Of a stretch of DNA of 64,000 bases, positions 7,845 through 37,015 are shown one piece after another. The position numbers were made by a program, and so were the translations under genes. This DNA is from Lysinibacillus sphaericus OT4b.31 (GTDB lineage: Bacteria; Bacillota; Bacilli; Bacillales_A; Planococcaceae). How positions within the stretch are numbered: the stretch's first letter is position 1; each line of letters opens with the position of its first letter. The notes under the pieces were generated by a model. That model worked only from the letters and a program-made list of their open reading frames with translations, did not search any database and was not told the DNA's origin. The DNA lies in contig NZ_KB933398.1 of assembly GCF_000392615.1 (NCBI RefSeq), positions 690,391 to 754,390 of the forward strand, written 5' to 3'.

Positions 7845-8010
7845 TTTTACTTGCTGTAGAAATATCGGCCATTACAAATTGAACTTCAAATATTGTCATC
7901 ATGGTTTTAACATATGGCTTCCATCTATTAGCAATATCTGCTACACTAACATCAAATTGAATAGCTTTAACTAGGGGAGTCTGATGAGTCAGGCTGAGAG
8001 GGAAACGCAT
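7837..8010 (-). pseudogene. Minus-strand protein remnant, family unknown
   Basis: A minus-strand frame ending at TAA (7837-7839) reads protein-like for ~43 codons, including ADIANRWKPYVKTMMTIFEV and FVMADISTASK. The part nearest its possible ATG (8010) is antisense to the TPP riboswitch and does not look like protein. It overlaps the convergent AEC stop by 8 bp. I read it as the surviving C-terminus of a lost gene; no family recognised. Confidence 0.35.
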
Positions 8011-8066
8011 TGAGGTTTCTTGACCCTTTGGACCTGATCTGGCTCATACCAGCGTGGGAAAGTTAA
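7967..8066 (+). ncRNA. TPP riboswitch (THI box) controlling thiC
   Basis: Contains the conserved THI-box cores CTGAGAGGGAAAC-type (CTGATGAGTCAGGCTGAGAG), ACCCTTTGGACCTGATCTGG and CGTGGGAAAGTTAA, closed by TTAACT / AGTTAA. It lies 5' of thiC and is followed by an intrinsic terminator at 8117, so thiamine pyrophosphate should stop transcription. Confidence 0.95.
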
Positions 8067-8116
8067 TGATTATCACAGTACTTGCACTTTGTGATAAATG
8101 AAACCCTTACATTCAC

Positions 8117-18570: not shown

Positions 18571-20418
18571 TTGCAACTTACATTAACATTTATCATTTTA
18601 GGAGCAACGATATTTGCATTTATGACGAATCGTGTACGAGCTGATCTGGTTGCGATAGTGTCGCTCCTTGCATTTATTATTACGGATATTTTAACACCAG
18701 CGGAGGCGTTAGCTGGTTTTTCGAACTCTGTTGTACTAATGATTGCAGGGCTTTTTGTCGTGGGTGCTGGGATATTGCGTACGGGACTTGCAGGGATGGC
18801 AGGGCAGCTATTGCTGAAATGGTCAGGCGATAGTGAGCTGAAGTTATTTGTGTTACTACTTGTGATTGTTGGCTCTGTCGGCGCTTTTATGAGTAATACG
18901 GGTACAGTAGCTTTAATGATGCCGATTGTTGTTAGTATCGCAATTAGTATGAAGGAAAGTCCTTCTAAATTTTTGTTACCTCTTTCTTATGTAGCAAGCC
19001 TATCTGGGCTAATGACATTAATTGCTTCGCCGCCGAATTTAATTGTTAGTCAGCTTTTGGTGGATCGTGGCTATAATAAACTGGGCTTTTTCGAAGTGAC
19101 ACCGATTGGCATTGTTGGGATGATTGTCGGTATTATCTATTTGGTGCTTGTACGAAATGTATTATTGCCCAATGAACAAAATCGTACCCAAACAAATGCT
19201 GGCTACAAACTCTCGCCAAAGAAAATTATTAAGCAATATGATTTGAACAATCGTTTGTTTAAAATATATGTGCCTGAGGATTCTGCAATTATTGGTATGT
19301 CACTAGCAGAATTGAAGCTACCTGCGAAATATGCGCTCTGTATGATGAAAATTCATCGTAAATCGCAAGAAGGTATAAATCTATTGCCAATGACTTATCA
19401 GGAAATGGCTGGTCCAACAAGCGTTATACATGCGACGGATGAGCTCTATGTGCAAGGTGAGGAACAAGATATTCGTCGTTTGGCTATGGATTATGGCTTA
19501 GAAATGCAAGAGTTAGTTGAGGGAGAAGCTGATGAATTGGTATCGAAGCACCTCGGCATTGCAGAGGTACTACTAACGCCAAATTCTAGCTTCACGAATG
19601 AGACAGTCAGCTCATTGGGCTTCCGTGAAAAATACAATCTCAATATTATTGGCATTAATCGTAGAGGTGGCTATAAGCTACAGGATATGGTTTCACATAA
19701 GTTGAAATTCGGTGATGCCATTCTCGTGCAGGGTGCATGGGATGAAATCGTGCTACTCGCAAGGGAAACGCAGGACGTCGTAGTAGTTGGTCAGCCAAAA
19801 GAGCATGCAAGTGTTGCCGCAGCCACAGGTAAGGCGGGAATTGCGGGTGCTATTATGCTTTTAATGATTGTACTAATGGCTTTTGAAGTTTTCCCTGCTG
19901 TTATTTCCGTGATGATTGGTGCAGTACTAATGATTTTAACAGGCTGTTTGCGCAATATGGAGGATGCATATAACAATATGAATTTTGAAAGCATTGTCCT
20001 TGTTGCAGCGATGCTTCCGATGGCAACAGCGCTAGAAAAAACTGGCGGTATGGTAATTTTATCGAATGGAATTATCGATGTACTCGGTAGCTACGGCCCT
20101 TATGGGGTACTTATTGGAATTTATATTTTGACGGTAATTTTCGGGCAATTTATTAGTAATACGGCAACTGCTGTCCTGTTTGCGCCAATTGCCATGAACG
20201 CAGCGATTGCCATGGATGCAAATCCAACAACGTTTATGATTGGCGTAGCGGTGGCAGCAAGTATGGCATTTGCCACGCCAATTGCCTCGCCGACAAATGC
20301 ACTTGTTATGACTGCGGGGGGTTATAAGTTTATGGACTTTGTGAAGGTTGGATTACCACTACAGGTCGTAATGTTTGTCGTCATGATGCTAGCAGTGCCA
20401 TTTTTCTTTCCATTTTAA
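18571..20418 (+). CDS. SLC13/DASS-type anion permease with two RCK_C domains
   Basis: 615 residues from TTG 18571 (GGAAA upstream). Six or so membrane helices (residues 1-205) are followed by two cytoplasmic TrkA-C/RCK_C domains (~210-295 and ~300-390), then further membrane helices to the end. The two halves carry the repeated motifs NTGTVALMMPIV ... ASPPNLIVSQ and NTATAVLFAPIAMN ... ASPTNALVMT, typical of the divalent-anion:Na+ symporter family. Predicted to import a di- or tricarboxylate or sulfate; the substrate cannot be read from sequence. It follows hutI but is separated by a terminator. Confidence 0.85.
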   Translation: MQLTLTFIILGATIFAFMTNRVRADLVAIVSLLAFIITDILTPAEALAGFSNSVVLMIAGLFVVGAGILRTGLAGMAGQLLLKWSGDSELKLFVLLLVIVGSVGAFMSNTGTVALMMPIVVSIAISMKESPSKFLLPLSYVASLSGLMTLIASPPNLIVSQLLVDRGYNKLGFFEVTPIGIVGMIVGIIYLVLVRNVLLPNEQNRTQTNAGYKLSPKKIIKQYDLNNRLFKIYVPEDSAIIGMSLAELKLPAKYALCMMKIHRKSQEGINLLPMTYQEMAGPTSVIHATDELYVQGEEQDIRRLAMDYGLEMQELVEGEADELVSKHLGIAEVLLTPNSSFTNETVSSLGFREKYNLNIIGINRRGGYKLQDMVSHKLKFGDAILVQGAWDEIVLLARETQDVVVVGQPKEHASVAAATGKAGIAGAIMLLMIVLMAFEVFPAVISVMIGAVLMILTGCLRNMEDAYNNMNFESIVLVAAMLPMATALEKTGGMVILSNGIIDVLGSYGPYGVLIGIYILTVIFGQFISNTATAVLFAPIAMNAAIAMDANPTTFMIGVAVAASMAFATPIASPTNALVMTAGGYKFMDFVKVGLPLQVVMFVVMMLAVPFFFPF

Positions 20419-20450: not shown

Positions 20451-20675
20451 GATAAAAAAGAAGGTTATGAAAATATTCTGCATGGACATGGTTGCTAATA
20501 TAAAAAATACCAGTATATTTTGAGTTATTTTTATATTAAAGTGTATGTTAAACTCCTATTCTTAAAAGTGGAAAAAAGAATGAAATGATCATCAAAAAGA
20601 CTCTAGAGTACAAAGAAATATAGAATCATTTATATAGGAAGTTTTCCAACATGTAAAAAAAATATTGAAAAAGTG

Positions 20676-20704
20676 TTGACCTTTATCTATTTAGCGTGTA
20701 GTAT
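20676..20704 (+). promoter_or_regulatory. rRNA-operon-type sigma-A promoter
   Basis: TTGACC (20676-20681) and TAGTAT (20699-20704) are separated by 17 bases. The leader that follows contains CCTTGAAAACTGAACAAG (20752-20769), a sequence typical of Bacillus rrn leaders and spacers. Confidence 0.7.
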
Positions 20705-20876
20705 TATATGAGTCGCCAAGGTGACACGCTAAAACAAGCAAAACATGAACCTTGAAAACTGAACAAGCAAAACGTAATCATAAAGTTTTTAGTAGCGAAC
20801 TTCGGTACGTGAACAAAACAAAATTTTGGACATCAAAATTGATGCCAGCAAAACAATTTGAGCTTATCAAATTTCT

Positions 20877-20942
20877 TTTATGGAGAGTTTGATCCTGGCT
20901 CAGGACGAACGCTGGCGGCGTGCCTAATACATGCAAGTCGAG
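20877..20942 (+). rRNA. 16S rRNA fragment, 5' end only (about 65 nt)
   Basis: The sequence from TTTATGGAGAGTTTGATCC through the universal GCGTGCCTAATACATGCAAG to TCGAG is the exact beginning of a Firmicute 16S gene. After 20942 it departs (TCCATTTAGGCCC...). The remaining ~1.5 kb of 16S, all of 23S and all of 5S are absent, yet promoter and leader lie upstream and tRNA genes downstream. Either a real internal deletion of an rrn operon or an assembly collapse across a repeat. Confidence 0.9.
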
Positions 20943-20963
20943 TCCATTTAGGCCCACCATTAT

Positions 20964-21040
20964 TCCGAAGTAGCTCAGTTGGTAGTAGCACCTGACTGTT
21001 AATCAGGTTGTCGCAGGTTCGAGTCCTGCCTTCGGAGCCA
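20964..21040 (+). tRNA. tRNA-Asn (anticodon GTT)
   Basis: Acceptor stem TCCGAAG / CTTCGGA, anticodon arm CCTGACTGTTAATCAGG with GTT, T-arm GCAGGTTCGAGTCCTGC, and an encoded CCA. In Bacillus, tRNA-Asn commonly follows a 5S gene. Confidence 0.95.
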
Positions 21041-21041
21041 T

Positions 21042-21113
21042 GGCCCGTTGGTCAAGTGGTTAAGACACCGCCCTTTCACGGCGGTAACACGGGTTCGAAT
21101 CCCGTACGGGTCA
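21042..21113 (+). tRNA. tRNA-Glu (anticodon TTC)
   Basis: Acceptor GGCCCGT / ACGGGTC, anticodon arm CCGCCCTTTCACGGCGG with TTC, T-arm CACGGGTTCGAATCCCGT. The 3' CCA is not encoded (TCT follows). One base separates it from tRNA-Asn, so both are co-transcribed. Confidence 0.95.
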
Positions 21114-21118
21114 TCTTG

Positions 21119-21150
21119 CATGTAGCACATTGTTGCTACATGTTTTTTTT
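21119..21150 (+). terminator. Terminator of the rrn/tRNA transcription unit
   Basis: CATGTAGCA / TGCTACATG perfect stem followed by eight T. Confidence 0.92.
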
Positions 21151-21284
21151 ATGAAGACTTCCAGTCAAAAACTTAAATTTGAACAAAGTATTTCATATAT
21201 GCAAAATGTATGTTTACGAGTGGATTTTTTCATGGTGAATCTAGTGCCATTGCTCTAATATGAGGGTAGATGGAGGAAATCGAC

Positions 21285-22331
21285 ATGAATTTACAAGAGG
21301 TACAACGGTTTTTAGCACTTTATCAGTCAGAACAAAATGAGCCTGAAACATGGTTAGCAAATAGATTACAACAGGTTGAATCTGCGGGAGAATATAATCC
21401 CACGACAGAAGAATTAATCTTCGGAGCACGAGTAGCTTGGCGCAATAGCAATAAATGTATTGGTCGTTTGTTTTGGCAATCACTACATGTTGTAGATGCA
21501 CGTGACATTTTAGATGAGCAATCTATTTTCAAAACATTACTTGCACATATTCAATATGCAACAAATGACGGAAAAATTCGCCCGACGATTACAGTGTTTG
21601 CATCAGAACGTGTGCGTATTTGGAATCACCAGTTAATTCGTTATGCAGGTTATGAAACGGAGGAAGGAATTATCGGTGATCCCCATTCTATCCACTTTAC
21701 GAATATATGCAAATCACTAGGCTGGCAAAGTGAGGGAACCGCGTATGATGTACTACCTATTATTGTGCAGGTAGATAAGCGTGCACCACAAGTATTTACC
21801 ATCCCAGAGGAACATATATTAGAGGTGCCAATTCGTCATCCACAATATCCAAAGGTCCAAGAGCTTGATATAAAATGGTATGCAGTACCGATTATTTCGA
21901 GCATGCGCTTTCAAATGGCGGGAATTGATTTTCAAGCAGCTCCATTTAATGGATGGTATATGGGAACAGAAATAGGTGCGCGCAACTTAGCTGATCATGA
22001 CCGCTACAACATGTTACCAGCGATAGCAGAAATTATTGAGCTGGATACGACAAAGCAGGCATCACTTTGGCGAGATCGTGCGTTAGTTGAGCTAAATATT
22101 GCCGTGCTTCATTCCTTTAAAGAAGACGGCGTAAGCATTGTCGATCATCATACGGCTGCGCAACAGTTTAAGCTGTTTGAGGAGGCGGAAGAGAAGGCAG
22201 GACGAGAGCTAACAGGTAACTGGACATGGCTGATTCCGCCACTATCGCCCGCAGCAACGCATATTTTTCACCAGCCTTATGTCAATGTTTACAATACGCC
22301 AAACTATTTTTATCAAAAGCCCCCATACTAA
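21285..22331 (+). CDS. nos: Bacterial nitric oxide synthase oxygenase
   Basis: 348 residues from ATG 21285, which has GGAGGA nine bases upstream; the in-frame ATG at 21270 overlaps that site. It makes NO and citrulline from arginine. The haem-ligand Cys58 is in AWRNSNKCIGRLFW, and the substrate and pterin regions (GWYMGTEIGARNLADHDRYN, WTWLIPPLSP) are intact. Like other Firmicute NOS proteins it lacks a reductase domain and must borrow electrons from cellular flavodoxin-type reductases. It is monocistronic. Confidence 0.97.
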   Translation: MNLQEVQRFLALYQSEQNEPETWLANRLQQVESAGEYNPTTEELIFGARVAWRNSNKCIGRLFWQSLHVVDARDILDEQSIFKTLLAHIQYATNDGKIRPTITVFASERVRIWNHQLIRYAGYETEEGIIGDPHSIHFTNICKSLGWQSEGTAYDVLPIIVQVDKRAPQVFTIPEEHILEVPIRHPQYPKVQELDIKWYAVPIISSMRFQMAGIDFQAAPFNGWYMGTEIGARNLADHDRYNMLPAIAEIIELDTTKQASLWRDRALVELNIAVLHSFKEDGVSIVDHHTAAQQFKLFEEAEEKAGRELTGNWTWLIPPLSPAATHIFHQPYVNVYNTPNYFYQKPPY

Positions 22332-24015: not shown

Positions 24016-24195
24016 TGTATTGAGGTAGAGGTCGCGGTATTTATAAGTACGCTAATGGAAATGACAAGCATTAAAGATGTTAGCTGAAAGGAAATACCGC
24101 CGAAGTGTGAGGGGACTTGAAAACCTCATGCTGGGGCTGTTTCCGAAAGGAACAGAACTGTCACGTTGGAATGACGTGTTGCGCTATCATTTGAA
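24016..24195 (+). ncRNA. Lysine riboswitch (L box)
   Basis: The conserved L-box elements are present in order: GAGGTAGAGGTCGCG, GCCGAAG (24110 region), CTGGGGCTGTTTCCGAAAGGAAC, and GACGTGTTGCGCTATC. It precedes a LysP-type permease gene and is followed by a terminator hairpin. Lysine binding should terminate transcription. Confidence 0.93.
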
Positions 24196-34425: not shown

Positions 34426-34565
34426 ATTGAGTCGTCTAGGATTCTTGATAGACTAATGCCACTGAAAAATCATATAAAGAAAAATTTATACTTCCTACAC
34501 TTTTCTCCTTTACTTTTTAAATTTACAAGCGTAATATGACATCATTATAAAAGTTTCAAATTTCT

Positions 34566-34715
34566 AAATCGCTGAAGCACTGAACGCGGGGGAACCAATT
34601 TTGACGGATTGTATAGGCAATCCTTGGGGTGAATCTCTTTATTATTAAAGACGTAGGGCTACTCATGGTCCGAATCCGACAGCTAACCTCGTAAGCGTTA
34701 AGAGCAGAAAAATTG
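34566..34715 (+). ncRNA. c-di-AMP riboswitch (ydaO/yuaA class)
   Basis: Conserved blocks in order: CGCTGAA...GCGGGGGAACC, CTTGGGGTGAATC, GTAGGGCTACTC, and GTCCGAATCCGACAGCTAAC followed by CTCGTAAGCG. Upstream of a KimA-type transporter, the classic target; c-di-AMP should turn expression off. Confidence 0.95.
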
Positions 34716-36765: not shown

Positions 36766-36879
36766 ACAGCTGGAATACCAGTTAATTCCGAAAATTTACA
36801 ATAATCCTATTATAAATATTTATACTGAATGCACGAAATGGCTATTTATAATAAGGACATTCTTACAGCTTAATACTAT

Positions 36880-36955
36880 TTCACTCATATAATAGCGAGA
36901 ATAGGGCTCGCGAGTTTCTACCGATTTACCGTAAATGAATCGACTATGGGTAGCA
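36880..36955 (+). ncRNA. Purine riboswitch, guanine class
   Basis: CATATAAT, then AGTTTCTACC, CCGTAAATG and CGACTATGGGTAG match the purine aptamer. The CGACTATGG context puts C at the specificity position (74 in B. subtilis xpt), meaning guanine/hypoxanthine rather than adenine. Precedes xpt-pbuX. Confidence 0.95.
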
Positions 36956-37015
36956 ATATTTTAGGAAACCTCATACAAATGGTGAGCCGTTTTTCTAATT
37001 GTTTCGACGTTTTCG

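Follow-up and report, generated by a model that had tools for sequence, protein, structure and literature searches.

Probable assembly misjoin behind an apparent rRNA promoter-tRNA fusion in the genome of Lysinibacillus sphaericus OT4b.31

In the assembled genome of Lysinibacillus sphaericus OT4b.31, a ribosomal RNA (rrn) leader and the first 66 nt of a 16S rRNA gene run without interruption into the last 22 nt of a tRNA-Ile gene, followed by two complete tRNA genes. This join, at 20938-20942 of the window (the whole stretch of 64,000 nucleotides analysed here, positions 690,391 to 754,390 of NZ_KB933398.1), is almost certainly an artefact of assembly, in which two contig ends were merged over a chance 5-bp word, TCGAG, and ~6 kb of ordinary operon was dropped. 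As a piece of biology, the feature most likely does not exist. A sequence-only reading of the region had raised the collapse of a repeat as one of two possibilities, and this is now strongly backed by the genome's own other rrn loci, by intact orthologous loci in relatives and by the published assembly method.

Anatomy of the junction

The junction is flanked by two unique genes, and its parts are as follows (all on the + strand).

18571..20418, +, transporter gene, the upstream unique flank (ORF; Pfam CitMHS / Na_sulph_symp with TrkA_C)
20676..20704, +, rrn promoter-like site, TTGACC-17-TAGTAT (consensus scan; the region aligns to an rrn locus of the relative G010)
20705..20876, +, rrn leader (matches leaders of the genome's own other rrn loci and of relatives)
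20877..20942, +, 16S rRNA, first 66 nt (exact match to four other 16S starts of the genome)
20938..20942, +, the join, TCGAG, common to both arms (own-genome 16S and tRNA-Ile templates)
20938..20959, +, tRNA-Ile(GAT), last 22 nt, from T-arm to CCA (exact copies at C1:3627 kb and C1:3633 kb)
20964..21040, +, tRNA-Asn(GTT) (ARAGORN, Rfam)
21041..21115, +, tRNA-Glu(TTC) (ARAGORN, Rfam)
21118..21143, +, terminator-like hairpin followed by a T-run (hairpin / T-run scan)
21270..22331, +, nitric oxide synthase oxygenase gene, the downstream unique flank (ORF; PF02898)

With the genome's own copies as templates, the 16S arm and the tRNA-Ile arm overlap by exactly 5 bp, TCGAG, and the letters of the window contain no N at this position. 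Both arms are repeated in the genome, the 16S start in five copies and the tRNA-Ile tail in three exact copies; the matches to the latter at C1:3627295 and C1:3632994 are both the ends of tRNA-Ile genes.

Much of what had been read from the letters alone is borne out: the leader resembles those of the other rrn loci, close to 65 bases of 16S follow it, and the two tRNA genes are succeeded by a terminator-like element. The sequence after the 16S start, previously taken to be unrelated, is instead the tail of tRNA-Ile(GAT) and a spacer. The promoter-like site is present, and 20655-20942 aligns at 94% with the promoter, leader and 16S start of an rrn locus in G010, but the site's match to the consensus is weak, with four promoter-like sites found against 2.7 expected in shuffled sequence.

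Elsewhere in the window, four riboswitches score above the Rfam gathering score: TPP (7963-8077), lysine (24018-24194), c-di-AMP (34560-34711) and purine (36865-36966).

The same locus in related genomes

A search with the nitric oxide synthase gene hit 30 of 41 genomes, including that of the window; 24 of the 30 are same-genus relatives. Upstream regions were compared for 19 of the 24, comprising 12 long-contig and seven draft genomes; G004, G011, G013, G017 and G022 were left out of the comparison. All 12 long-contig relatives display one order: leader, 16S start, 23S (whole or in part), 5S, a tRNA string, Asn-Glu and the nitric oxide synthase gene, which lies downstream of the tRNA block in every case (12/12). 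The string ahead of Asn-Glu contains 11-19 tRNA genes, the last of them being Gly-Ile, and the transporter gene was matched upstream of the same rrn in ten of the 12. The comparison of synteny with relatives, which had been proposed as a check, thus returned full-length 16S and 23S at this locus in 11 of 12 genomes, G005 being the exception, and the TCGAG join was absent from the locus in all 12.

In G010, the nearest complete relative, whose nitric oxide synthase protein is 91% identical, the two TCGAG sites are separated by 6,064 bases. The earlier estimate that about 4.5 kb of 16S-23S-5S is missing was therefore right as to the absence of these genes but too low as to the extent of the loss, since the interval in G010 also holds ten other tRNA genes along with the greater part of tRNA-Ile. 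Set against the same-genus arrangement of an rrn operon and a long tRNA string, the window corresponds to both ends, with the leader and 16S start at one and the tRNA-Ile end, Asn and Glu at the other; the whole stretch from 16S nt 66 up to the final 22 nt of tRNA-Ile is lacking. A possible parallel to an rrn operon carrying a long tRNA string is rrnB of Bacillus subtilis.

From the order of the locus in the long-contig relatives, Asn and Glu are best read as the final genes of a long rrn-tRNA operon of the ordinary kind. The proposal of an rRNA promoter left with two tRNAs alone to drive is not supported, as these two genes close such an operon in the relatives, behind the same leader.

The contigs of all seven draft genomes begin at the 3' end of 23S or within the tRNA block, and are uninformative about the join; one of them (L108) begins inside tRNA-Ile, 24 nt ahead of the TCGAG word. 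Drafts were discarded as controls for the join, as these seven contigs and eight named Lysinibacillus contigs (8 of 80 loci) end inside the rrn-tRNA block or shortly beyond it, before a 16S start. The rrn-tRNA block is a site at which assemblies of this genus break.

rRNA and tRNA content of the assembly

The assembly consists of 71 contigs with a total of 4,856,819 bp, of which C1 accounts for 4,097,021 bp, and five short contigs that were inspected read as N throughout. No complete 16S was found in it: there were four matches, all partial, among the 26 of 39 candidates scored. The 16S start is present five times, the fifth copy being that of the window, and the other four run for 308, 343, 391 and 425 nt before meeting a gap of exactly 100 N. 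The single 23S match (12 of 45 candidates scored) lies alone on contig C17, of 3,015 bp. At least seven rrn leaders were met, four of them gapped and three joined, and, on a literal reading of the assembly, none of the rRNA operons met is intact. The genome report gives seven rRNA operons and 38 tRNA genes (PMC3910547).

A tRNA family search gave at least 26 matches (150 of 256 candidates scored). A query of the tRNA-Tyr, Trp and His genes had no full-length match in this assembly (G000), only two short and weak ones of 52 and 38 bases (85 and 84%), while all 13 relatives yielded a near full-length match. In 11 of the 13 the Tyr-Trp-His block is present at another locus too, again near full length, one such block having been read directly, so loss of the copy here need not kill the cell. 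The missing genes were for this reason rejected as proof of lethality; they show only that the assembly is incomplete.

Further N-free joins in the same scaffold

Two other rrn loci in the scaffold are joined in the same manner. At C1:29254-29258 (L047), an rrn leader passes into 5S via GAAC(A) with no N, the overlap being 5 bp against the leader of the window and 4 bp against a different leader from this genome. At C1:3918012-3918016 (L051), a leader passes into a 23S-5S spacer via the 5-bp word AACAA, again N-free; the right arm of this join was matched with a shorter word, and the matching contig, C17, ends there. For both joins, all nine relatives searched carry a full 16S no more than a few kb from the corresponding flanking gene, and direct reading of G010 at both loci gave 16S-23S-5S.

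Two features of L051 were seen in passing. A chimeric tRNA-Glu/Tyr gene lies at about C1:3915198-3915273 on the - strand, with 11 shared bases at the fusion; in the counterpart of G010 the Glu, Val and Tyr genes are separate, and the chimera is likely to be another misjoin. In addition, a unit of about 120 bases is present in three tandem copies within the 23S-5S spacer, at 1507-1863 on the reverse strand of L051, and resembles a portion of the G010 16S-23S spacer.

Origin of the join

According to the genome report, the reads for OT4b.31 were 90-bp pairs from 500-bp inserts and were assembled with CLC, after which gaps were filled in repeated rounds of GapFiller and contigs were ordered on strain C3-41 with CONTIGuator, giving a chromosomal scaffold of 4,096,672 bp and a total of 4,856,302 bp (PMC3910547). 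Reads and inserts of this size cannot span 6 kb, and the reach of the gapped 16S copies (308-425 nt) is shorter than one insert length.

Under such conditions the unique flanks, namely the transporter gene with the leader upstream and tRNA-Glu with the nitric oxide synthase gene downstream, would assemble from short reads, whereas the 16S, the 23S and the tRNA-Gly-Ile-Asn block are multi-copy and would hence be unplaceable. One contig end would have run into 16S and the other back into tRNA-Ile, and the two would then have been merged over their chance 5-bp overlap, dropping ~6 kb made up of 16S-23S-5S and about 11 tRNA genes. The merge was probably made by gap-filling after the reference-guided ordering, and the living strain would be expected to keep an intact operon, in which the promoter drives the rRNA and the whole tRNA string.

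GapFiller is described as closing a gap on the overlap of two extensions, with a default of at least 10 nt (PMC3446322). It likely made the join, although it was set aside as a proven cause: words of 4-5 bp do not fit this default, leaving the responsible program or setting unproven. Collapsed rDNA is a known problem in short-read assemblies, and the authors of riboSeed suspect it in several reference genomes (PMC6009695). As in the cases treated in that paper, multi-copy rRNA operons are collapsed here and flanks left gapped; unlike the gaps described there, three of the rrn gaps in OT4b.31 have been closed over 4-5-bp words, without N and finished in appearance.

The principal competing explanation takes the sequence as it stands: recombination at TCGAG would really have removed ~6 kb, from 16S nt 66 to the T-arm of tRNA-Ile, and left the rrn promoter to drive tRNA-Asn and tRNA-Glu only. 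The absence of N and the clean 5-bp word suit this explanation; the word also counts against an artefact, in that one of this length is also the footprint of a microhomology-mediated deletion. Such a loss could moreover be survived, given the second Tyr-Trp-His block in most relatives and the 8-12 16S matches (partials counted) that each relative carries, so that one operon could be spared. It is nevertheless very improbable, as the same type of join recurs at two other rrn loci and four more are gapped with N, both arms end in sequence repeated in the genome, and the join is unseen in the 12 long-contig relatives; furthermore, an assembly accepted at face value would leave the strain with no intact rRNA operon found. 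By title, a literature search returned no real fusions of an rrn promoter with tRNA genes, which is not a claim that they are absent from print.

A chimeric molecule from the library, or a minor variant in the culture, carrying the TCGAG join could also have entered the assembly, and would likewise yield an N-free join at a short common word. This is the least probable of the three accounts, since three rrn joins, each at the ends of repeat contigs, are more simply explained by the merging of contig ends. Misassembly therefore remains the preferred reading of the join.

Consequences for rRNA and tRNA annotation

A scaffold that has no N at a given site can conceal collapses of rrn and tRNA loci joined over words of 4-5 bp. 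Collapses concealed in this way skew the counts of rRNA and tRNA genes, create chimeric tRNA genes and can mimic the biology of promoter swapping. Were the deletion true after all, it would represent a natural promoter swap, tying the dose of two tRNAs to the control of rRNA.

A low number of contigs is no guarantee against such errors, as is illustrated by G005, which is a single contig and in which all eight 16S matches are shortened, ending at model position 546 (for one of them the DNA itself was read). Within its copy of the present locus (L102:7503-8547), spacer-like sequence comes after the 16S start, and of 23S only the 3' part is present. G005 is thus apparently a one-contig genome with collapsed rRNA operons.

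Two other irregularities were encountered among the relatives. In G018, also a one-contig genome, which has nine full copies of 16S, a partial one at C1:1919228-1919991 is in two pieces (model positions 9-546 and 567-754) and may be either a remnant or an assembly error. In G024, one contig (L111, C10:1-7800) carries the tRNA block twice, each time with the nitric oxide synthase gene and with 1,534 N between the two copies, a doubling that is probably a scaffolding duplication.
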